Of a stretch of DNA of 64,000 bases, positions 38,973 to 49,657 are shown in pieces (within the stretch, counting starts at the first letter, position 1; the number at the start of each line of letters is the position of its first letter). Position numbers and translations under genes: made by a program. The stretch comes from Bacteriovoracaceae bacterium. GTDB lineage: Bacteria; Bdellovibrionota; Bacteriovoracia; Bacteriovoracales; Bacteriovoracaceae. The stretch covers positions 124,001-188,000 of the forward strand of contig JAOARC010000050.1 of NCBI GenBank assembly GCA_025210745.1. Reading direction: 5' to 3'. The notes beneath the pieces were generated by a model. That model was not told the DNA's origin. It searched no databases and saw nothing but the letters and a program-made list of their open reading frames with translations.

Positions 38973-39614
38973 ATGGATTTTATTAATCAAATCACAGGGT
39001 TTATTCAAGGTGGTGGTGTCTTCATGTATATCATCTTAGTTGTCTGGGGAATTGGTCTAGCAATTGCTCTAGAAAGATTTAGTAAATTATCAAAAACTTA
39101 TGATGTTGATGGACCATCTTTTATGAATGAAATTCAAAGATACGTTCTATCTAATGATATACAAGGAGCAATTAGAGTGTGTTCTGGATCAGTAGCTGCT
39201 TTAGCAAAGGTTCTAAAGAGTGGCTTAAAAAGATCAAAGCAAAGCGCCCATCAAATTCAAAATGCATTAGATGCAACAGCATTAGAAGTTGTACCTAAGG
39301 TAGAACACAGGTTAAACTATCTACAATTAATCGCAAATATTTCAACATTATTAGGACTACTAGGAACAATTCAAGGTCTTATTCTTACCTTTTCAGCTGT
39401 TGCCGATGTTGACCCTGCTCAAAAAGCAGAATTACTTGCCGCAGGTATTTCTAAGGCCATGAACACAACAGCACTTGGTCTAATCAGTGCTATTACAATT
39501 ATGGTTATTCATGCTTTTCTATCAGGTAAGTCTGAAAAAATTATTAATGAAATTGATGAGTTCAGTGTAAAGCTTTTAGATTTACTTGGAACAAAAGAGG
39601 AAATTGAAAAGTAA
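38973..39614 (+). CDS. aglR: Gliding motor proton channel, MotA/TolQ/ExbB family (AglR-like)
   Basis: 213 residues. Three membrane segments (about 15-37, 115-140, 155-180) and the MotA_ExbB core: NYLQLIANISTLLGLLGTIQ and AISKAMNTTALGLISAIT, the two helices lining the proton path. First of a three-gene operon with two TolR-like partners, the same 1+2 make-up as AglR-AglQ-AglS of the Myxococcus gliding motor. The facing gene set (Glt-like) supports that reading over TolQ; no TolA/B/Pal is nearby. AAGGAG ribosome site. Symbol by analogy. Confidence 0.85.
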   Translation: MDFINQITGFIQGGGVFMYIILVVWGIGLAIALERFSKLSKTYDVDGPSFMNEIQRYVLSNDIQGAIRVCSGSVAALAKVLKSGLKRSKQSAHQIQNALDATALEVVPKVEHRLNYLQLIANISTLLGLLGTIQGLILTFSAVADVDPAQKAELLAAGISKAMNTTALGLISAITIMVIHAFLSGKSEKIINEIDEFSVKLLDLLGTKEEIEK

Positions 39615-39623
39615 GGCCTATAG

Positions 39624-40157
39624 ATGAGTTATAGATTACCAACAAGAAGAAAAGTAAAAAAAGCACAAGGTGGTTTAAACCTTGTGCCTATTTTAGATGC
39701 AATCTTTATTTTAATTTTCTTCTTATTAATGTCAGCACAATTTGTAAAAATCTTTGAAATTGGAAGTGATGTACCAATCGTTTCAAACACACCTCCTCCT
39801 AAAACAAAGAAGAAGCCACTTAATTTAACACTTAAAATTAGGAAGTCTGGCTTATTATTAACAACAGGTTTAAATCAAAGAGTTTATACAAATATAAAAA
39901 AGACAAAAGAAGGTGAGTACGATCTTCTAAGACTTCATGACGTTCTTATTTCTCTTAAAAAGAAGTATAAGCATGAAGAAACAATTGTATTTGAACCTCA
40001 AGTAGATTTAACATACGAAGAGATTGTAAAAATTATGGATGCCGTTAGATTATTAAAGAAAACAGATGATTCCATATTCACTAAAGATAAAGATGGTATT
40101 GATATTCAACTTAAAACATTATTTCACAAGATAATGTTTGGAAACTTAATGAGTTAA
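39624..40157 (+). CDS. TolR/ExbD-like motor subunit 1 (AglQ/AglS-like)
   Basis: 177 residues. Short basic cytoplasmic N-terminus, a single membrane helix with the essential Asp at its start (NLVPILDAIFILIFFLLMSA), then a periplasmic domain ending in a TolR-type fold (YEEIVKIMDAVRLLK). Proton flow through the AglR-like channel would act on this Asp and move the periplasmic part. Nine bases after the AglR-like gene. Confidence 0.85.
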   Translation: MSYRLPTRRKVKKAQGGLNLVPILDAIFILIFFLLMSAQFVKIFEIGSDVPIVSNTPPPKTKKKPLNLTLKIRKSGLLLTTGLNQRVYTNIKKTKEGEYDLLRLHDVLISLKKKYKHEETIVFEPQVDLTYEEIVKIMDAVRLLKKTDDSIFTKDKDGIDIQLKTLFHKIMFGNLMS

Positions 40158-40160
40158 TTT

Positions 40161-40676
40161 ATGTCTAGAGCGCGATCAATAAGATTTAAAAAAAGAAGAA
40201 ATAAAAAAGGTTTTTTAGAAATAGATATCACTTCCCTCTTAGATATCTTAGTTATTCTCCTTATATTTTTAATAAAAAGTTATAATTCATCAGGGGTCAC
40301 TTTAAATGTACCAAAAGGTATTGAACTCCCCAATTCACAATCCGATTCAATAAATACACCTGGTGTCTTAATACAGGTTTCCAAAGATACCATTTGGGTT
40401 GACTCAAAGACTGTATTAGATACACAAACTCTACCAAAAGTAATTTACGATCAAGGAGGAAGAAGAATCGTTCCCCTTTACAACGAATTAGTTAAGAAAA
40501 AAGAAGAAATTAAGTTGCTTCAAAAACAAACAAAAGAAGCAAAAAAATTTAGTGGTATTGCTAATTTAGTCGTAGATAAATCATTAAAGTATTCCTATGT
40601 AAAAAAAGTTATGTTCACAGCAGCAGCTGCTGGATTTAAGGAATATAAATTCGTCGTTTTAGGTGTTGAGCAGTAG
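40161..40676 (+). CDS. TolR/ExbD-like motor subunit 2 (AglQ/AglS-like)
   Basis: 171 residues. Strongly basic N-terminus, one helix with Asp residues at its start (EIDITSLLDILVILLIFLIK), and a periplasmic TolR-like domain with an extra helical insert of charged residues (LVKKKEEIKLLQKQTKEAKK) near 110-130. Second TolR-type subunit, three bases after the first; having two distinct TolR subunits is a trait of the Agl motor. A hairpin lies 15 bases after the stop. Confidence 0.84.
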   Translation: MSRARSIRFKKRRNKKGFLEIDITSLLDILVILLIFLIKSYNSSGVTLNVPKGIELPNSQSDSINTPGVLIQVSKDTIWVDSKTVLDTQTLPKVIYDQGGRRIVPLYNELVKKKEEIKLLQKQTKEAKKFSGIANLVVDKSLKYSYVKKVMFTAAAAGFKEYKFVVLGVEQ

Positions 40677-40691
40677 TTAAAATGAGTATAG

Positions 40692-40713
40692 GCTGATATA
40701 CCAAAATATCAGC
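40692..40713. terminator. Hairpin between convergent motor and Glt-like operons
   Basis: Eight-base-pair perfect stem GCTGATAT/ATATCAGC with a six-base loop, 15 bases after the last motor gene. No clean T-run follows on either strand, so it could be a weak bidirectional terminator or an RNA-end stabiliser. Confidence 0.45.
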
Positions 40714-40869
40714 TTAGACACTAAAAGAACGAGTGCAATGCTTGAATAAAACAAAATCAATTTGTTCATATAAACCCACAATACAATGTCCCCCTCATTA
40801 TAAAATACTTATAAATACTATGAAGTCAAAAGTGCATTTTGGCCCTATAGGTCCCTAAGATGTAAGAAT

Positions 40870-41253
40870 TTAATTAAACTCTATTGGAAATTGAATCCAA
40901 GTTGATTGTGAAAGAATCAAAGACTTAAAGTTATAGCTCCATAGCTGTTGCTCAATACACATCTTTAAAGATGTAGGAAAGCCTTTTTGTCTTTTTATAG
41001 TAACTCCTTTGACTCTTCCCATCTTAGTCACTGATAGATTTACACAAGCTTTTAGATTCTTACTTTTATCTTTTTCAAATTTTAAAAAATTTTTATAACA
41101 ATTTAAAAAGTCTTTAGACCTCGAAGACAAATTCATTAAAATAGCTCTTTGATCAACTCGATCCGAAAAAGTCTTACAGCTATAAACATTACTTTTTTTA
41201 TCTGAAGAACAAGAAGCTAATAATAATAAAATAAAACTATAACGAATTAACAT
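40870..41253 (-). CDS. Small lipoprotein with AgmX/TonB-C-like domain
   Basis: 127 residues. Lipobox LLASCSSDKK, then one domain with VNLSVTKMGRVKGVTIKR and a following Cys in LKMCIEQQLW. The pattern Cys ... (hydrophobic strand)-x-G-x-V ... Cys-x-x-x-(L) is the same as in the C-terminus of the 665-residue FHA protein and in the neighbouring 117-residue lipoprotein. Anchored in a membrane facing the periplasm. Last gene of the leftward Glt-like operon; its start lies 17 bases inside the previous gene. Role unknown, probably a structural part of the machine. Confidence 0.75.
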   Translation of the reverse strand: MLIRYSFILLLLASCSSDKKSNVYSCKTFSDRVDQRAILMNLSSRSKDFLNCYKNFLKFEKDKSKNLKACVNLSVTKMGRVKGVTIKRQKGFPTSLKMCIEQQLWSYNFKSLILSQSTWIQFPIEFN

Positions 41254-41590
41254 AAAATGATTGAATTAACCTTATCGCTTTGTAATCTTTAGGTGGATGA
41301 AATTTAAACTTTTTCAAAACTTTATTCATACAGATATTTACTCCATAACTCATTAAAGGAGTCGATTTCATTTTTATCTTTTCAACTCTACCCATTTTAT
41401 TTATTAAAAAATTTACCTTAGTATAATATTTAACTGTTTTATCTTTTAAGAGTCTTTCGGAACTACAGAATTTCAAATCATTATAGTAATAATTAATCAG
41501 TTTTTTTAATCCTTCCTGCGAAGCCTCAAACTTTTTTGGCTCTATTAAAGCACATGAGCTCAAAACAAGGATAATAAGAATTCTTATCAT
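41237..41590 (-). CDS. Small lipoprotein with AgmX/TonB-C-like domain
   Basis: 117 residues. Lipobox VLSSCALIEP, then FCSSERLL, VNFLINKMGRVEKIKMKS, and VNICMNKVLKKFKFHPP: the two cysteines and Gly-Arg-Val turn line up with the C-terminal domain of the upstream FHA protein. It overlaps that gene's stop by one base. Weak sequence similarity with the next lipoprotein suggests tandem duplication of a stand-alone domain. Confidence 0.75.
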   Translation of the reverse strand: MIRILIILVLSSCALIEPKKFEASQEGLKKLINYYYNDLKFCSSERLLKDKTVKYYTKVNFLINKMGRVEKIKMKSTPLMSYGVNICMNKVLKKFKFHPPKDYKAIRLIQSFYVNSL

Positions 41591-43587
41591 TATAGTCTTT
41601 TAGGATAAAAGTTAAATGGCTGATTAACATCAACCGTTCCTCCTCCCATAGGCCTTGGAAACTTTATTCCTTTAAGAACTCTTACAACACATCCTCTAAC
41701 ATTTGATGGTAAAGTACTACTTTTTACTCCAGCCTTAGAAACATGCCCTGAAGCTCCAATTGTAAACTGTAAACCTACTGTTCCACTTATATTAGATCCA
41801 ACGGATTTATCTAATTCTTTTTGATAACAATATCTAAACTGTGGTAAATGCTCTCTTAAGATTCTTCTAATAACATCGGGGTCCATAGAACCAAGAACAA
41901 CTGTCTCACTTGGAATACCTGCTACATATGTTCCTTTATTAGTTGATAGTCCCTCTGTTCCTTTAGATTCTGCTAGCTTTCCTGAAGCTGATCCTGTTAA
42001 AGATCCTACTTCAGTACCAACATTTGCCTTTTTTACATTTGTAGCAACTCCTCCACCAATACTAGCTCCAGTTAAAGATGTATTAGAGGATGTATTCGCT
42101 GTTGCTCCTTTAAGACTTCCACCCTTGGCTTGAATTGCAGAAACTGTTGATTTAAAATCAAATGACTTATAAACGTCAATAGTCCCTTTATTTTTTGAAG
42201 GTCTTGTCGCTTTTCTAGTAGAAGCTGTTTTTGTGCTTTTCTTTGCTGCTGAAGCTGTTTTTAACTTATTCTTATTAGGTGATTTTTTAGCAGGATTTTT
42301 AACTCGCTTAACCTTCTGAACTGTTTTTGCCTTTTTTGTACCTGATTTTTTGGTATTATTTTTCTTCACCTCTGTTGTTTTTGGCTTAGAAGCCTTAGGC
42401 TTAGTTTTTTTCTTTGTAACTTTATTTTTAGTTTTTTGTTTCTTAGGAGGTGCTTTTTTCGTTTTTTCAACAGTTTTATTCTTTGAAACTTTCAAAACCT
42501 GTTTATATAAAATTCGAGCTATCCTCTCTGGATCTTTTTCCTTTTCTTTTTCCGGTGTCGGCCATAAAAGAATAAGAGCAAAAAGAAGAATGAGAATACC
42601 TAATACTGAAGAAATATATTTCCATAAAACTTTATCTCTTTTAAAAAATGGAGGAGGAGTAACTTTTGGTGGCGAAGGAGCTCTTCTTACATAAATTTCT
42701 AATGCTCCATTTTCGAGTCTTAAAATATCATCATTTTTAAGATTAAAGCGATCTTGACTAGATACTTCTAAACCATTATCGCCAACAATAGATGCCTCAT
42801 AATTATGTAAATTATAAACAATATAGTTTCCATTATTAATTTCAACAAAATCAACCTGTTCAGTTTTACCTAGATAAGCAAACTCTATTTGATCTTTTGT
42901 AGGGTTAGCACCTACTATTTTATAAACTCCATTTTTTTCAGGAATATAATCGACTGAAAAGACCTTATCATTAAATAAAATAATAACTTCAACTGCTTGT
43001 TTTGAATGTTCATATTTGAAAATTGGATATATTTCATTTGCATCCTCAAAAATATACTCTGACACATCTGCATTTTTATCTTCAGAAAGAGGAAATGCAA
43101 TATACGGAATATCTTCATTATCATCTTTTTTAGAGTCTCGTAGTGCTTCAACGGGAATATTTTTTTCTTTTGTAGATGGAACTTCTTTGGGTAATGAAAT
43201 ATCATTAATTGGAGCTGCTTGTCCATTAACAGGGTTTAAAACTTCTAAAGGTATATCATTTGATTGAGTTGTATACTTTTCTAAAATAAAGTCTACATTT
43301 GCAAATCTAATCTCATCGCCAACAGATAACTCAGCAACAACAACTTTTTTGCCATTAATAAAAGTTCCGTTTTTTGAGTTCATATCAAAAACTTTGGCTC
43401 TTCCATTTTGAACTTCAACAACTGCATGAACAGATGAAACGTTTGAATCATCAATATAAAGCTCACAACTTTGAGCCCTTCCCACAAGGACTCTTCCATT
43501 ACTCAAAATATTTCCCTTAACACCAACATTCGATTTAGGAGTAAGCTTTAAAATAATTCTTTCTAAATTTGAATCTAAATTACTCAT
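41590..43587 (-). CDS. FHA-transmembrane-AgmX/TonB-C protein (GltG-like)
   Basis: 665 residues. Cytoplasmic FHA domain at about 20-95 (GRAQSCELYIDDSNVSSVHA, NSKNGTFINGKK: phospho-Thr-binding Arg, Ser, His and Asn present). A second beta-rich, FHA-like stretch without these residues lies at 200-310. One membrane helix is at about 322-345 (SSVLGILILLFALILLW). A Lys/Thr/Ala-rich periplasmic linker follows at 360-475, then a Gly/Ser-rich stretch, and an AgmX/PglI-type TonB-C-like domain at about 565-665 (FRYCYQKELD, GLQFTIGASGHVSKAGV, PFNFYPKRL). This is the order seen in Myxococcus GltG. It should couple the motor to outer-membrane parts, with FHA sensing Thr phosphorylation. Confidence 0.86.
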   Translation of the reverse strand: MSNLDSNLERIILKLTPKSNVGVKGNILSNGRVLVGRAQSCELYIDDSNVSSVHAVVEVQNGRAKVFDMNSKNGTFINGKKVVVAELSVGDEIRFANVDFILEKYTTQSNDIPLEVLNPVNGQAAPINDISLPKEVPSTKEKNIPVEALRDSKKDDNEDIPYIAFPLSEDKNADVSEYIFEDANEIYPIFKYEHSKQAVEVIILFNDKVFSVDYIPEKNGVYKIVGANPTKDQIEFAYLGKTEQVDFVEINNGNYIVYNLHNYEASIVGDNGLEVSSQDRFNLKNDDILRLENGALEIYVRRAPSPPKVTPPPFFKRDKVLWKYISSVLGILILLFALILLWPTPEKEKEKDPERIARILYKQVLKVSKNKTVEKTKKAPPKKQKTKNKVTKKKTKPKASKPKTTEVKKNNTKKSGTKKAKTVQKVKRVKNPAKKSPNKNKLKTASAAKKSTKTASTRKATRPSKNKGTIDVYKSFDFKSTVSAIQAKGGSLKGATANTSSNTSLTGASIGGGVATNVKKANVGTEVGSLTGSASGKLAESKGTEGLSTNKGTYVAGIPSETVVLGSMDPDVIRRILREHLPQFRYCYQKELDKSVGSNISGTVGLQFTIGASGHVSKAGVKSSTLPSNVRGCVVRVLKGIKFPRPMGGGTVDVNQPFNFYPKRL

Positions 43588-43598
43588 TTTAATATACC

Positions 43599-43838
43599 TT
43601 ATTTAATAATATCTAAAGTTCTAATCATTTCTTTGTTAAAATTCTTTCTTTCTGGAATCTTATTTCGAAACCTCTTTTTTAATCTCGAATTTATAGACAA
43701 GTCTCCAGGAGAGCTTAAGCTCCCCTCAACATTTAAAGTTGAAAAGTCAAAAGATTCATGTTTTTTATATTCATACTTAATCTTTTTTTTCTGTGCATAA
43801 GCACAAAAAGCCAACATTAAAACTAATAATATCTTCAT
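43599..43838 (-). CDS. 79-residue exported protein (position of GltF)
   Basis: Signal peptide (KILLVLMLAFCAYA) followed by about 62 charged residues with little hydrophobic core (KKKIKYEYKKHESFDFS, LKKRFRNKIPERKNF), likely an extended periplasmic linker peptide rather than a globular domain. One base after the TPR lipoprotein gene and 11 before the FHA gene. No domain recognised; the GltF comparison rests only on size and position. Confidence 0.68.
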   Translation of the reverse strand: MKILLVLMLAFCAYAQKKKIKYEYKKHESFDFSTLNVEGSLSSPGDLSINSRLKKRFRNKIPERKNFNKEMIRTLDIIK

Positions 43839-43839
43839 A

Positions 43840-44718
43840 CTATTTCCTTACTATATTCTTAACTTTCCTATAATATTTTTTTAATTTCTTAACTTCAATA
43901 TCTTCCAATAAATCTTGTGCTTTTTCTTTATTATTCAATAAATAATGAGTATAGGCATAGTTAATTCCATAGTACTCATTTTCAAACAAGTCTTCATCCA
44001 GTCGATTATATACTTTTAATGCATTCTTATAACTTCCAAGTAATAAATAATTTGTTCCTAACGCATTTAAAAGCTTAGGATCAACAGAGTTAAACTGATA
44101 CAAGCCTTCTAAGATAGAAATCGATTTATTTTTATGACCAAAGCTCAAATACAGAAGTGCCATATTAAACTTTGGCGTTTTTGCATACGAATCAGATTTC
44201 GTTGCTCTTTTATAAGCAGTTAATGCTTTTTGAAATTCACCTTTTTGTTCATACATAACTCCAATATTATTAAGTGTTGGAGCATAGTTAGAAATATATT
44301 CTAAAGACTTATTAAAAAAGAGTAGTGACTTTTTATATTTCTTTTGTAATAAAAAACAAACCCCTACCTGATTCCAGAAGCTAGCATGTGATCGATACTC
44401 CTCTTGCAATTTACGAATCATACCAAATGCTTCTTCAAAGTCACCCTCATAACAAGTTTTTGTTAATTCTATAAGTGGCGACTTTACTAAAACTTTATCA
44501 ATAATATCATTATTGTGAAGACTTTCTTTTGCCAGTAAGTTTTTCTTTAGAACCTCTTTGTCTTCAAAAGTATTTGTATCTGCTCTTTTTGAGTAAGTTT
44601 TAGCTTTTTTCTGAAGGAAATCAGAGTTTTTATATTCAATATCAAGCTCTCTTGTCTCTAAATCAGAGTTCTTTTTAGAAGCACATGAGATCATTACAAG
44701 AATTAATAAATATTTCAT
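43840..44718 (-). CDS. TPR lipoprotein (GltE/AglT-like)
   Basis: 292 residues. Lipobox LVMISCASKKN, a charged stretch to about 85, then four to five tetratricopeptide repeats (ASFWNQVGVCFLLQKKYKKS, APTLNNIGVMYEQKGEFQKA, KLLNALGTNYLLLGSYKNAL). Probably attached to the outer membrane and holding periplasmic partners. Its ATG overlaps the stop of the 949-residue TPR gene by four bases. Domain type, size and place agree with GltE of Myxococcus. Confidence 0.82.
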   Translation of the reverse strand: MKYLLILVMISCASKKNSDLETRELDIEYKNSDFLQKKAKTYSKRADTNTFEDKEVLKKNLLAKESLHNNDIIDKVLVKSPLIELTKTCYEGDFEEAFGMIRKLQEEYRSHASFWNQVGVCFLLQKKYKKSLLFFNKSLEYISNYAPTLNNIGVMYEQKGEFQKALTAYKRATKSDSYAKTPKFNMALLYLSFGHKNKSISILEGLYQFNSVDPKLLNALGTNYLLLGSYKNALKVYNRLDEDLFENEYYGINYAYTHYLLNNKEKAQDLLEDIEVKKLKKYYRKVKNIVRK

Positions 44719-47564
44719 CTCATTCCACCTTTGTCCATTAGAAATCCAATAGCTGGCCTATGATACTGTCCAATATTTGCACCATAATTTACAAGAACCT
44801 CTCTTGCAGTATTAGATATAATATTATTTTTAGAAATTGAATCTAACAGACTCTTTCTATAGCCTTCCTTAGTCTTCTTTAATGATTTAGTTAAAGAACT
44901 CATCGACATTTTAAAACTTTTTACATAATCAGTACTTTTACCTGGAGGCGAAAATGAATCTATTGATTTAATTACCGCATCATATGTATCAATTAATGTT
45001 TTATATGATTCAATAATACCTTTAGCTGAACCAACTTTTTGTACTTTAATTACTGAATTAGTAAATGTATCAAGCAGCTTAAGCTTTCTTTGCATTGTTG
45101 AATTAAAGATCTTTTCAGGAAAACTTAGTCTCATCGACTTTATTCTATTGCTCGTTCTACTTAGTCCCGCTAAGTCATCTAAAATGATTGCATCATAATC
45201 ATCAGCGGATATTTTATACTTTTTCTTTTTAGCCAGAGCGTAATATTTCATTTTTCGTTTTTTTAACTGAGCAACTTTAGATTGATTTCCAAGGTTTCTA
45301 TTAACCGATATTAGAACCTCCAAATCAGAAATAAGTTCTCCTGTATTTTTAGGATTTTGTGCCAGCTTATTCACTAAGAACTCATATTCTCTATACATCT
45401 TCTTTTGTCTATATTCATCTAAAAGAGAAAACTCAACTTCAGTAATATAGCTTTTGGAAACACCACAAATACTTGCTTTAGAAATAAGTTCATCAACCTC
45501 TTTAATTTTTCCTTCAGATAAAGCCAGATAAGAAGCATTCTTAAACAAAGTATTCTTGGTCCTATTTTTTCTAGAGCACAACTTATCTAAAATCGTTTTT
45601 TGAAGAGCAATTGATTTATTAAATTGAAGTTTCATAAAATAAAACTTCGCAATTGTTACAAAAGAATCTGCAAACTGTGATGTTTGAGAACTATTCATAT
45701 CTCTTAATGCAGCAAGAGACCATTTATATGAATTATCAACATCTCTTAATTCAAAATATAAAGCAGCGATATTATATTTTGCATTTATTTTTGCTTTTGG
45801 GGTAGCATATGGATCTTTTAAAACATTTTTATATCCAGCAAGAGCTTTAGCTTTATTTCCTCTTTCAAGATCTTTTTGAACTCCACCAATTTGCATTGAC
45901 GTTAGAAGTTCTCTTAGTTTCAACCTATATTTAGGAGTGACAGTATACTTTTTGTTATCAACAGCTAGTATCCAAACCTTAATTGCATTTTTATCTTTGT
46001 TTTTTCTATCGATATCAACTAAATTACCAATCATAGCTTCTTGAATTTTATAATCTCTAGGGTAATCTTTAGCATATTGATCTAAAGTATTTTTTGCTAT
46101 TTTATATTTTCGTTGATCTGAATAAACTTTAAATAATTTTTGATAAATAATTTTATGTCTTTTATCTGATCTATAATTTTTTATAAACTCAGGATACACC
46201 TTTTCATACCAAACATTTTTATCTTTACTTGAAATATACTTTGTATTTAATGAACTTAAAGTTCCATCCATCGCTCGTTTTTTAAACTTACCATCACCAC
46301 TAGTATAAACTGTCCAATATGCATTTAAGGCATCTTTTTTCTTTGCTACAAGTGCATAAGTTTCAGCTTCAAGATACTTATATTCTTGAAAGTCTTTTGG
46401 GCTTATACTTGCAACAATATAAAAATATCTTGTTGCCATTTTTGCTTTAGAGTTTCTCGTTTTCCGAAGTCTCTTATAAGTTTTTGATGCCACTTGTTTT
46501 TGTAAGATAGCACCTTGTTTTTTAGCATGAAATAATAATTTCTTATAAGCATCTCTATCTATTTTTTTCTTATTATAATAATTAAATAAAGTATTTGTTA
46601 CACTTAAGTGTCTTGCGTATCTATTGTATTTAGAAAATAAATCTAATTGTTCAATGTGAACAAGAATTCTATTTTGTTCTCTTTTTTCATATCTTAAAGC
46701 TTCACCTAAAACCTTAACTGCTTCTGAATATTTCCCCTGTGTTTTTAAAGACTTTGCTATAATAAGTAATTGAGCTACAAAATCGACATTCAAATTTTTA
46801 TAAAACCTAATCCCTTCATTAACTCGGCTAGTTGTTGCAAACATCACACCAATATCTCTTTGAACCTGGTCTGACATATCCACATACTTAGAGTTCTTAC
46901 TTTTGCTAAATACTTCTTTCATCTTTGCAATGGCTTTATCTCTTTTCTTTGTTCTGTAATAACACCAAGCTAAATTAAAACTATCTTTTGTCCACCATTT
47001 ATCTTTATGATATCTAAGTGCTTTTTCATATAATGGTATTGCTTTAGAAAATTGTTTTTTATTAAAATAAAGCTCTGCTAGTGAAATTTTTGACCTTATA
47101 TTAACAGTCGAGTTTTTGCGGCTTTTTTTCGTGGCTAAAGATAAATACTTCGCTGCAAGTTTTGTATTTCCTGATTCTTTCGCGTTAAAACCTAATATAT
47201 AATAGACATCAGGCATATTCTTATATTTTTTATATCTTTTAGTAATAGACTTACAATATTTTGTCGCTCTATTAAAATAGCTCGTTGATTTTTTAAAATA
47301 TCTTTTTTTATTCGTTTGCCTTCTTTTTTTATTTGATAGAGCTAAATATTCTTGATTTTCTTTTTCTCTCCAAAGCCTAGCTTTTTCTAAATTAAGCTCC
47401 GCCATTCTCAAAAGATGATCAGGGTTCTTATACTTAGTCTGCTTAGCCAACCTAGAAACTTCAGATAACTCTTCGTTAATAATTTCAATAATCTGCTCTC
47501 TTCTTTTATCTAATGATAATGAAAACACAGATACACTAAATATGAATAAGATTAACAATCTCAT
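44715..47564 (-). CDS. Large periplasmic TPR protein (GltD/AgnA-like)
   Basis: 949 residues, signal peptide (LLILFIFSVSVFSLS), then an almost continuous helical-repeat solenoid with clear TPR units (VYYILGFNAKESGNTKLAAKYL, AELYFNKKQFSKAIPLYEKA, FNLAWCYYRTKKRDKAIAKM) and a high Lys/Tyr content. No enzyme motif. It is likely the periplasmic scaffold of the machine. One base separates it from the upstream TPR gene. The homology to GltD is inferred from architecture and gene order. Confidence 0.8.
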   Translation of the reverse strand: MRLLILFIFSVSVFSLSLDKRREQIIEIINEELSEVSRLAKQTKYKNPDHLLRMAELNLEKARLWREKENQEYLALSNKKRRQTNKKRYFKKSTSYFNRATKYCKSITKRYKKYKNMPDVYYILGFNAKESGNTKLAAKYLSLATKKSRKNSTVNIRSKISLAELYFNKKQFSKAIPLYEKALRYHKDKWWTKDSFNLAWCYYRTKKRDKAIAKMKEVFSKSKNSKYVDMSDQVQRDIGVMFATTSRVNEGIRFYKNLNVDFVAQLLIIAKSLKTQGKYSEAVKVLGEALRYEKREQNRILVHIEQLDLFSKYNRYARHLSVTNTLFNYYNKKKIDRDAYKKLLFHAKKQGAILQKQVASKTYKRLRKTRNSKAKMATRYFYIVASISPKDFQEYKYLEAETYALVAKKKDALNAYWTVYTSGDGKFKKRAMDGTLSSLNTKYISSKDKNVWYEKVYPEFIKNYRSDKRHKIIYQKLFKVYSDQRKYKIAKNTLDQYAKDYPRDYKIQEAMIGNLVDIDRKNKDKNAIKVWILAVDNKKYTVTPKYRLKLRELLTSMQIGGVQKDLERGNKAKALAGYKNVLKDPYATPKAKINAKYNIAALYFELRDVDNSYKWSLAALRDMNSSQTSQFADSFVTIAKFYFMKLQFNKSIALQKTILDKLCSRKNRTKNTLFKNASYLALSEGKIKEVDELISKASICGVSKSYITEVEFSLLDEYRQKKMYREYEFLVNKLAQNPKNTGELISDLEVLISVNRNLGNQSKVAQLKKRKMKYYALAKKKKYKISADDYDAIILDDLAGLSRTSNRIKSMRLSFPEKIFNSTMQRKLKLLDTFTNSVIKVQKVGSAKGIIESYKTLIDTYDAVIKSIDSFSPPGKSTDYVKSFKMSMSSLTKSLKKTKEGYRKSLLDSISKNNIISNTAREVLVNYGANIGQYHRPAIGFLMDKGGMR

Positions 47565-47565
47565 A

Positions 47566-48948
47566 TTAACACTCCGACTTTAATGCAAATACATAGTCTC
47601 CGAGCTCATCTGCCCAAAACTCCCCATTAAAGTTCCAAAAATATTGTTTTTCATTACGTTCAAGATACTTAATATCACCACGTTTTTTCTTTGTATCATC
47701 AAAATTATATAACTTAGCCTTTCTCTGAGCTAAAACTTCAAGCTTTATATAACTCATTCCTTCAAAACCTCGATATAACTGAGCATATTTTTCAATAAGC
47801 TTTGATCTTACAAAAGCCCCCAGATACTTTCTTCCCGATCCAATAACATCTCTTAAATTTGAAAGTAAAGACTTTTTGATCCTAAGGCTTTTCATATTTT
47901 TAACTCTTTCATATTCTTTATACAAGTCTTGTTGGGATTTACTTAAACTTCTAATAACGGCATCCGTTTGAAAACTTGAAATCAAGGAATCAAGCAATCT
48001 ATTTCCACTCGTTTTATTTTTAGACAATGAGTTATAAAGTTTATAAAAATAATTATAATCTTTCCCTTTTCTTTTTAAGAAAACCCTTAACTTTCTTGTA
48101 GGAGTCATATACTTAGAATAAAACTTATCTGAAACCTTTTTTGCATCTTTATATAAACATAATTTTAAATAAGATAATGCTTTTAAAACTTCATACTCAG
48201 GATTAAAGAATCTATTAAACATTGGTGCATTATAAGTAACTAGTTTCCCTAATGTTCTATTATAGTTTTTCATATAATAACTATTCCAAGCTTCTTCAAA
48301 AAGAATATGTGGCCAAACAGGTGATGACTTTGGAATATCTAAAAATGAGAGCTCTGCTTTTTTATAATCTTTGTTAGCAAACTGTGTTCTTGCGATTCCT
48401 AAAATACAATAATGAGCATTTATTTTACCATCATACTTATTTTGATTACTTGTATTTTTACAGGTATTAAAAGCTTCAATAGAAGCATCCCATTTTTGTT
48501 CAAGAGCATAAACTGTTCCAAGAGCATTCATAGCATAAGGATATATTGAATGATTTGCATTGATAGACTTTAGGTACTGTTTTGCTGCTCTATAGGAAGA
48601 CTTTTTCAATAATTTTTTACCAATAATATATTTTATTGTATTTAAGTTTGATTTTTTTAAAAATCCTAAAGGTAAAGTCTCAAAATGACTCATATGAGTA
48701 TTTTGAATTATTTTAGATAAACTTTTTTCAAAGCTAGTATCATATTTATTAGTTCCTCTAGCCAAATATTCTTTTGCCCAAGGAATAGCACTATAATAAA
48801 GCTCATCATCGACTAGCTCTTTTACAAGTTTTTTAAGTTTTTGACTATATCCAATTCTTTGCTTTAAAATACTGTCTGCTTTACCGACACCTGCTTGTGC
48901 AGTAAAAGTAAACACTGTTATAAAAATAAAAAAGAACATCCTGTTCAT
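47566..48948 (-). CDS. Periplasmic TPR protein (GltC-like)
   Basis: 460 residues. Signal peptide (FFFIFITVFTFTAQA), helical repeats through about residue 290 (YAMNALGTVYALEQKWDASI, ILGIARTQFANKDYKKAELS), then a helical region and a Trp/Phe-rich C-terminus (KQYFWNFNGEFWADELGDYV). Ribosome site AGGATA. Second gene of the operon after the outer-membrane barrel, the place where a protein binding the barrel would be expected. No enzymatic motif. Confidence 0.78.
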   Translation of the reverse strand: MNRMFFFIFITVFTFTAQAGVGKADSILKQRIGYSQKLKKLVKELVDDELYYSAIPWAKEYLARGTNKYDTSFEKSLSKIIQNTHMSHFETLPLGFLKKSNLNTIKYIIGKKLLKKSSYRAAKQYLKSINANHSIYPYAMNALGTVYALEQKWDASIEAFNTCKNTSNQNKYDGKINAHYCILGIARTQFANKDYKKAELSFLDIPKSSPVWPHILFEEAWNSYYMKNYNRTLGKLVTYNAPMFNRFFNPEYEVLKALSYLKLCLYKDAKKVSDKFYSKYMTPTRKLRVFLKRKGKDYNYFYKLYNSLSKNKTSGNRLLDSLISSFQTDAVIRSLSKSQQDLYKEYERVKNMKSLRIKKSLLSNLRDVIGSGRKYLGAFVRSKLIEKYAQLYRGFEGMSYIKLEVLAQRKAKLYNFDDTKKKRGDIKYLERNEKQYFWNFNGEFWADELGDYVFALKSEC

Positions 48949-48958
48949 AATATATATC

Positions 48959-49657
48959 CTAGAAAGTATAGTTTAATCCGATTCCAATATTGTAATAATG
49001 ATTCCACTTTTTCTCTGTCTTACTCGCCCCAATTGATCCAGTTGCATTATCCGCACTTAAGTGAATCGCTCTAAAGTCTATTCTTGTACTCCAATTTTTT
49101 GTAATAAAAAATCTATTTGCAATCGCCCAAGATAACCCTGTGTTAGTTTCTTCTGTTAAATCATTTCGAGAAAGAGCAATAAACTTATTTCTATTATCCT
49201 TTGTCGTTACACTCGCTAAACCTAGTCCAAACATAACATCAAAATAAAAGACTTTATTAAAAGTATTAATTTTTGAATAAAAAGGCGACCACATAACCAT
49301 GGCAGACATTACTGTTTCAACTTTTCGATAGAATGCAACAGCCCCCTGAGTTCTTACTCCATCATGAGTTTTATTTTCATCTCCAGAAGCTTTAGTATAA
49401 CCAATCTCAATTCCCCAATCTTCAGCAAAGAAAAATCCGCCAAGTAAATCGACCCCTAAAGAATCGATAAATGTACTATTCATCTGCCTATGTAATGTCC
49501 CCCCAACATAAAAAGTTCCATCTTTTCTAAATTTTCTATTTTGAAGAACGTAGATTTCTTTATCTGAATCTAACCATGAGAAATCATAAATAGAGCTTTC
49601 ACTTGCGATTGCAAAACTGGATAATAAAAACGTAAATACGATAAGTATCTTCTTCAT
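48959..49657 (-). CDS. Outer-membrane beta-barrel protein (myxobacterial type; GltA/B/H-like)
   Basis: 232 residues. Signal peptide (KKILIVFTFLLSSFAIAS), then alternating amphipathic strands (FFFAEDWGIEIGYTKAS, YFDVMFGLGLASVTT, NRFFITKNWSTRIDFRAIHL) and a terminal aromatic YYNIGIGLNYTF, the usual last strand of a barrel. It resembles the outer-membrane barrel domain family shared by myxobacteria and relatives. First gene of the eight-gene Glt-like operon; strong AAGGAAGG ribosome site. Likely outer-membrane anchor of the machine. Confidence 0.82.
   Translation of the reverse strand: MKKILIVFTFLLSSFAIASESSIYDFSWLDSDKEIYVLQNRKFRKDGTFYVGGTLHRQMNSTFIDSLGVDLLGGFFFAEDWGIEIGYTKASGDENKTHDGVRTQGAVAFYRKVETVMSAMVMWSPFYSKINTFNKVFYFDVMFGLGLASVTTKDNRNKFIALSRNDLTEETNTGLSWAIANRFFITKNWSTRIDFRAIHLSADNATGSIGASKTEKKWNHYYNIGIGLNYTF

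Follow-up and report, generated by a model that had tools for sequence, protein, structure and literature searches.

Introduction

The Agl/Glt core is encoded at a single locus in many gammaproteobacteria. Four one-locus Agl/Glt clusters have been published for Bdellovibrio bacteriovorus (Bd0828-Bd0838, Bd0412-0420, Bd1473-1483 and Bd2368-2377; Luciano et al., 2011, PMC3169522; PMC2797640), and GltH, GltI, GltJ and GltK were reported to be absent in Bdellovibrio by Luciano et al. (PMC3169522). Gliding of Myxococcus depends on this machine, the AglRQS motor of which is ion-driven. In Myxococcus xanthus, contacts of AglR with GltG and among GltA, GltB and GltC are known, and cluster G1 contains gltD-E-F-G, in which GltF (MXAN_4868) is an 89-residue protein with a signal peptide (PMC3169522). 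A 2026 review describes the gliding motor of Bdellovibrio and its force transmission as unidentified and names the adhesins as an open problem (PMC13104615). Here, we describe a locus of a Bacteriovoracaceae bacterium (GenBank assembly GCA_025210745.1, contig JAOARC010000050.1, positions 124,001 to 188,000) that, with a probability of about 0.85, encodes a trans-envelope force machine of the Agl/Glt family, which is proposed to be ion-driven and FHA-gated. It occupies positions 38973-49657 of this stretch of 64,000 nucleotides, which is referred to as the window.

An Agl/Glt identity had been proposed from the letters and open reading frames of the window, without database searches (the sequence-only reading), and is upheld by profile matches to GltC, GltG and CglF/GltF, by the correspondence of the TPR and FHA proteins to the Nfs locus of Myxococcus and by the placement of the motor with Agl proteins in both a tree and reciprocal searches. 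What is new is a family member with a conserved variant architecture (an inverted motor operon and a single barrel) and not a new kind of system; taken alone, the locus introduces no new principle.

Organization of the locus

The locus consists of two tight operons that converge tail to tail, with their ends 193 bp apart. The plus-strand operon is aglR-aglQ-aglS, the genes of which are separated by 9 and 3 bp, and the minus-strand operon is gltA-gltC-gltD-gltE-gltF-gltG, followed by genes for two small lipoproteins. Pfam matches and coordinates agree with the one TolQ-like and two TolR-like genes recognized by the sequence-only reading, which also gave the minus-strand order correctly, with gaps of 11 bases or less, or overlaps (+10, +1, -4, +1 and +11 from the barrel through GltG). 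The six minus-strand genes that it listed all stand; the two lipoproteins at the end of the operon were left out, although they are needed to reach the eleven proteins that it counted. In the following list, matches to the Myxococcus-built equivalog models GltG, GltC and CglF lie below their curated cut-offs, and those to the tail and barrel models lie above theirs.

38973-39614, plus strand: aglR, TolQ/ExbB/MotA-like motor subunit, 213 residues (Pfam MotA_ExbB, 1.6e-26; tree; reciprocal best hit)
39624-40157, plus strand: aglQ-like, TolR/ExbD-type subunit, 177 residues, pore Asp25 (Pfam ExbD, 2.7e-13)
40161-40676, plus strand: aglS-like, second TolR/ExbD-type subunit, 171 residues, pore Asp28 (Pfam ExbD, 7.9e-13)
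40677-40869, no strand: junction of the convergent operons, 193 bp (from the coordinates)
40870-41253, minus strand: LpB, small lipoprotein with an AgmX/PglI-tail domain (NCBIfam NF033768, 3.5e-6; lipobox-like LASC)
41237-41590, minus strand: LpA, small lipoprotein with an AgmX/PglI-tail domain (NCBIfam NF033768, 4.2e-10; lipobox-like LSSC)
41590-43587, minus strand: gltG, FHA domain, beta domain, one transmembrane helix, Lys-rich linker and TonB-like tail (NF033760 GltG, 6.9e-44; NF033768 tail, 1.9e-22)
43599-43838, minus strand: gltF (cglF), exported protein of 79 residues (NF033764 CglF, 1.2e-6; position between gltE and gltG)
43840-44718, minus strand: gltE, TPR outer-membrane lipoprotein (TPR families to 1.8e-15; family profile)
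44715-47564, minus strand: gltD, periplasmic TPR protein of 949 residues (TPR; family profile)
47566-48948, minus strand: gltC, periplasmic TPR protein of 460 residues (NF033756 GltC, 1.4e-29; GltC+GltG tree)
48959-49657, minus strand: gltA-type eight-stranded outer-membrane barrel (TIGR04565 OMP_myx_plus, 4.5e-23; structure model)

The motor

In a maximum-likelihood tree all Agl proteins, including AglR of the window, form one group apart from Tol/Exb (support 99/98), in which the window motor groups with the Agl motors of Myxococcus and Bdellovibrio. Reciprocal searches used the genome of Myxococcus sp. CA023, which was found with the PDB sequence of M. xanthus MglA. In CA023, the window AglR matches the two R-Q-S motor clusters at 131 bits and the TolQ/ExbB proteins at no more than 46; in the reverse direction, the CA023 AglR finds the window AglR first, at 131 bits compared with 35 for the genome's own TolQ. 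That TolQ belongs to a separate TolQR pair on contig C40, and it is the protein picked by TolQ of both Myxococcus and Escherichia coli.

Asp25 of AglQ is nearly invariant and aligns with the transmembrane Asp of the Myxococcus counterparts and of E. coli TolR/ExbD, and Asp28 of AglS is invariant in the alignment. The acid required for ion conduction is present in both TolR-like subunits, and conduction itself is predicted from the sequences; in M. xanthus, the aglQ mutation D28N abolishes motor function (PMC3858216). The genome also encodes MglA (1.3e-91 to M. xanthus MglA), in the gene order recR, a gene for a 157-residue protein, mglA. A recR-to-mglA order has been reported in Bacteriovorax marinus, together with its divergent mglB (PMC3983030). 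Taken with the Bd0828-like loci of other genomes in the phylum (see below), this order points tentatively to a family of Bdellovibrionota other than that of Bdellovibrio. Separately, the genome (G000:C14, L060) and a relative (L169) share a strongly divergent ExbB/ExbD pair of about 170 and 137 residues, which the tree places next to the Agl group on a long branch.

Envelope proteins

GltG fits the GltG-like protein with FHA, transmembrane and TonB-C parts described by the sequence-only reading, as supported by the NF033760 match, by PDB matches of the FHA domain and by the AlphaFold model, which places the FHA domain at residues 12-105, the transmembrane helix at 319-341, a disordered segment at 345-565 and an alpha/beta tail at 570-660. 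A second beta domain follows the FHA domain, and the 220-residue linker is 24% Lys. The overall confidence of the model is low because half of the chain is disordered.

The same reading had pointed to GltD and GltE as TPR proteins, which holds for the 949-residue protein (GltD) and the TPR lipoprotein (GltE), and the first large TPR protein proved to be GltC, for which the PDB contains no sequence relatives. Library matches of GltD are to TPR only, and GltE is matched weakly by its NCBIfam model (0.011). We therefore settled both identities by gene position and by family profiles that were built only from the family of the window locus and run on the Myxococcus Nfs locus (L229). These profiles recover the Nfs locus as OMP-OMP-GltC-GltD-GltE-GltF-GltG, in the same order, at 1e-5 to 1e-41; the GltD profile finds the NfsD counterpart at 4.1e-35 and the GltE profile finds NfsE, the GltE counterpart, at 1.3e-19. 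The 79-residue exported protein is identified as GltF from its CglF match, its length and its position between gltE and gltG, and gltF was found in every complete locus of the two types defined below (A and B) that was fetched.

GltA is modelled by AlphaFold as an eight-stranded barrel (predicted local distance difference test score of 85), with Foldseek matches to OmpA/OmpW at 2e-8. Residues 20-45, which precede the barrel and are predicted to be unfolded, are nearly invariant among 20 homologues from types A and B (motif YDFSWLD-DK-VYVLQN, with conserved Tyr24, Phe26, WLD 28-30, Asp32, Lys33 and VLQN 37-40). On the basis of the model, GltC or GltF may dock onto this segment.

LpA and LpB are essentially stand-alone copies of the GltG tail (AgmX/PglI) domain and are lineage-specific. 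Among the fetched loci LpB has one homologue, in the close relative L057, and LpA has none, which leaves a role as conserved components unsupported. The genome contains six AgmX/PglI-tail matches, namely the two GltG proteins and four short frames of 120-178 residues, two of which lie elsewhere in the genome (C15 and C36).

Two locus types

GltC homologues were found in 228 of the 241 genomes sampled in the phylum, and twice in the present genome. We refer to the window locus and its relatives as type A and to the second locus (L039, contig C10) and its relatives as type B. Relatives preserve homologues of all the core genes in unchanged order, so the locus is not a chance arrangement. The motor operon is convergent in all 15 type A relatives with both halves in view, a count that leaves aside L051, which runs off its contig, and L239, with no motor within the approximately 7 kb fetched; we thus reject the reading in which convergence arose by accident in one genome. 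Type B loci run in line, in the order MIDAS/VWA lipoprotein-barrel-C-F-R-Q-S-D-E-G. Both types have one outer-membrane barrel per locus, and the inverted motor operon and the single barrel are family-fixed features of the type found in the window.

In the GltC+GltG tree, type A and type B each form a clade (100/99 and 100/100), and the two clades are sister groups (100/100) with respect to the Bdellovibrio and Myxococcus copies included. The window locus joins type B of the same family and falls outside the Myxococcus/Bdellovibrio set; it does not group with Nfs. Seven relatives were seen to carry both types, like the present genome.

MIDAS adhesins in type B loci

A VWA/MIDAS lipoprotein gene lies directly before the barrel gene in all nine type B loci and is related to the NCBIfam Bdellovibrio MIDAS adhesin (2e-17):

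L039:2527-3555 (G000:C10), type B: MIDAS lipoprotein; also in L043, L044, L046, L048, L050, L053, L058 and L241

In a probable Bdellovibrio genome (G112), a MIDAS gene likewise adjoins three Agl/Glt loci. The placement of these genes in type B and in G112 suggests that MIDAS adhesins act as the surface component of Agl/Glt machines. In B. bacteriovorus, Bd1483 is among the MIDAS proteins of Tyson et al. (2024; PMC11003981), whose main text mentions neither Glt nor CglB, and its gene lies in the Agl operon Bd1473-1483 (PMC2797640). Thick prey biofilms were cleared less well when either Bd1481 (aglR) or Bd1483 carried an insertion (PMC2277423), and deletion of bd1483 caused no prey-invasion defect (PMC11003981). 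CglB of Myxococcus is likewise a VWA lipoprotein and is needed for gliding (PMC4488436; PMC13104615).

Of the leads from this analysis, the MIDAS adhesin of the type B loci most deserves attention. The A/B pair is carried together in a family of probable Bdellovibrio relatives with a MIDAS adhesin fixed at the head of one locus only, and this clean comparison bears on which of the two machines serves cell movement, which of them serves prey entry and whether Agl motors drive MIDAS adhesins.

Flanking genes, junction and regulatory signals

The flanks, read from their translations, are unrelated to the system, with genes for thioredoxin and a sugar-phosphate isomerase-like protein upstream of aglR and AddA/AddB-type helicase-nuclease genes beyond the barrel. 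The AddA-like gene adjoins the barrel in all four type A relatives checked (L042, L047, L054 and L057), and type A therefore looks vertically inherited. The junction between the operons measures 0.1-3 kb in type A relatives and at times contains unrelated genes; in one genus FeoA/FeoB-like genes lie within it (L042:12248-14445 and L045:12487-14687). We rejected junction genes as parts of the system, since the content varies among relatives (feoAB-like genes and unrelated exported proteins).

No RNA families were found at the locus, and a sigma-70 scan gave no more sites than shuffled sequences (50 versus 55.4). Terminator-like matches in the region exceed those in shuffles (9 versus 3.8). A near-perfect inverted repeat (GCACAAGGTGGTTTAAACCTTGTGC) lies at 39661-39689, inside the start of aglQ.

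Proposed function and alternatives

In the proposed mechanism, AglR, AglQ and AglS would form an ion-driven motor in the inner membrane, the work of which would pass to the single transmembrane helix of GltG. The cytoplasmic FHA domain of GltG may gate the machine through phosphothreonine binding, and its Lys-rich linker and TonB-like tail would span the periplasm to GltC, GltD, GltE, GltF and the GltA barrel, with force being delivered at the outer surface. An AglR-GltG contact and a GltA-GltC complex are expected by analogy with M. xanthus. The most likely output would be slow surface movement, or movement on or in prey, with the adhesin encoded elsewhere. We give movement of the cell or movement related to prey roughly even odds, and gliding on surfaces or prey is plausible. 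Type A would be one of two Agl/Glt machines in the cell, the other locus bringing its own MIDAS adhesin.

Several observations weigh against this interpretation. The assembly, which is 88% complete, contains only two OMP_myx_plus proteins, one per Agl/Glt locus, so that the second barrel, GltB, is found in neither locus of the genome, nor is it in any fetched locus of the family. None of the six AgmX/PglI-tail proteins in the assembled genome is of GltJ size, and both GltB and GltJ are essential in M. xanthus. A MIDAS/VWA adhesin gene is present in none of the 17 type A loci. Furthermore, the related Nfs machine has another task, in spore coat assembly (PMC3858216), and the Bdellovibrio clusters peak at differing stages of predation (PMC12546842).

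Another reading is that the same chain of motor and transducer carries a surface glycan, such as a capsule, around the cell and does not move the cell itself. The exact Nfs order of the envelope operon, the lack of an adhesin in type A loci and the transport of the Exo polymer around the Myxococcus spore by Agl-Nfs (PMC3858216) would all fit such a surface-polymer transporter. We nevertheless regard it as unlikely, as M. xanthus Nfs borrows the Agl motor whereas a dedicated motor lies alongside here, no polymer export genes adjoin the locus and the GltC+GltG tree pairs A with B and not with Nfs. A Tol-Pal or ExbBD-TonB system for uptake or envelope integrity would explain a TolQ/TolR-like motor and a TonB-like C-terminus, but is extremely improbable: the tree and reciprocal hits place the motor with Agl and lead us to reject it, the genome has its own TolQR pair, neither TolA/TolB/Pal nor a TonB-dependent receptor is encoded in the locus, and the GltC, GltG and CglF matches have no place in it.

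It is also conceivable, though rather doubtful, that types A and B are one functional system that shares motors, adhesin or barrel, in which the window locus works only together with B. The co-occurrence of both types in seven relatives and in this genome, the adhesin in B and its lack in A, and the sharing of a single Agl motor by two envelope complexes in M. xanthus (PMC3858216) are in its favor. Each locus, however, has a complete motor and a single barrel, and the split between clades A and B is older than the divergence of the sampled members, which suggests divided tasks. A more novel reading, at clearly less than even odds, is that of two anciently duplicated one-barrel machines with divided tasks, in which B would be a self-contained adhesion motor with a MIDAS adhesin and A, with a separately transcribed motor and no adhesin, would move another cargo at the surface. 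If this is extended to Bdellovibrio, its predation-linked MIDAS adhesins would be the surface feet of Agl/Glt motors, like CglB in Myxococcus.

Comparison with known systems

The sequence-only reading considered a compact, one-locus version of the machinery, with motor and envelope complex facing each other, to be notable; given the precedents in B. bacteriovorus and gammaproteobacteria, the one-locus state is not, and what is particular is the inverted motor operon and the single barrel. The window shares with Bdellovibrio a single locus of gltA-C-D-E-F-G and aglRQS, in an order equal to that of the putative Bd0828 counterpart (L040); Bd0828-like loci lie near 0.80 Mb in complete chromosomes of other genomes in the phylum. 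In Bd0828-Bd0838, however, the motor genes continue in line behind gltG and a second barrel gene (gltB) is present, whereas the window locus has a convergent motor, no gltB and two tail lipoproteins after gltG.

The likeness to the Agl-Glt system of M. xanthus (clusters G1, G2 and M1) extends to the GltG, GltC and GltF models, the gltD-E-F-G order and the pore Asp, and AglR has its reciprocal best hit in Myxococcus (sp. CA023). In M. xanthus, by contrast, the genes are spread over three unlinked clusters; GltB and GltJ were not found here and a CglB adhesin is not linked to the locus. The Myxococcus Nfs locus is one operon with the identical order barrel-C-D-E-F-G and differs in having two barrels, no motor of its own and a role in sporulation. 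The type B locus (L039) encodes the same nine core proteins as the window locus and belongs to the sister clade, but is arranged in line with the MIDAS/VWA lipoprotein first.

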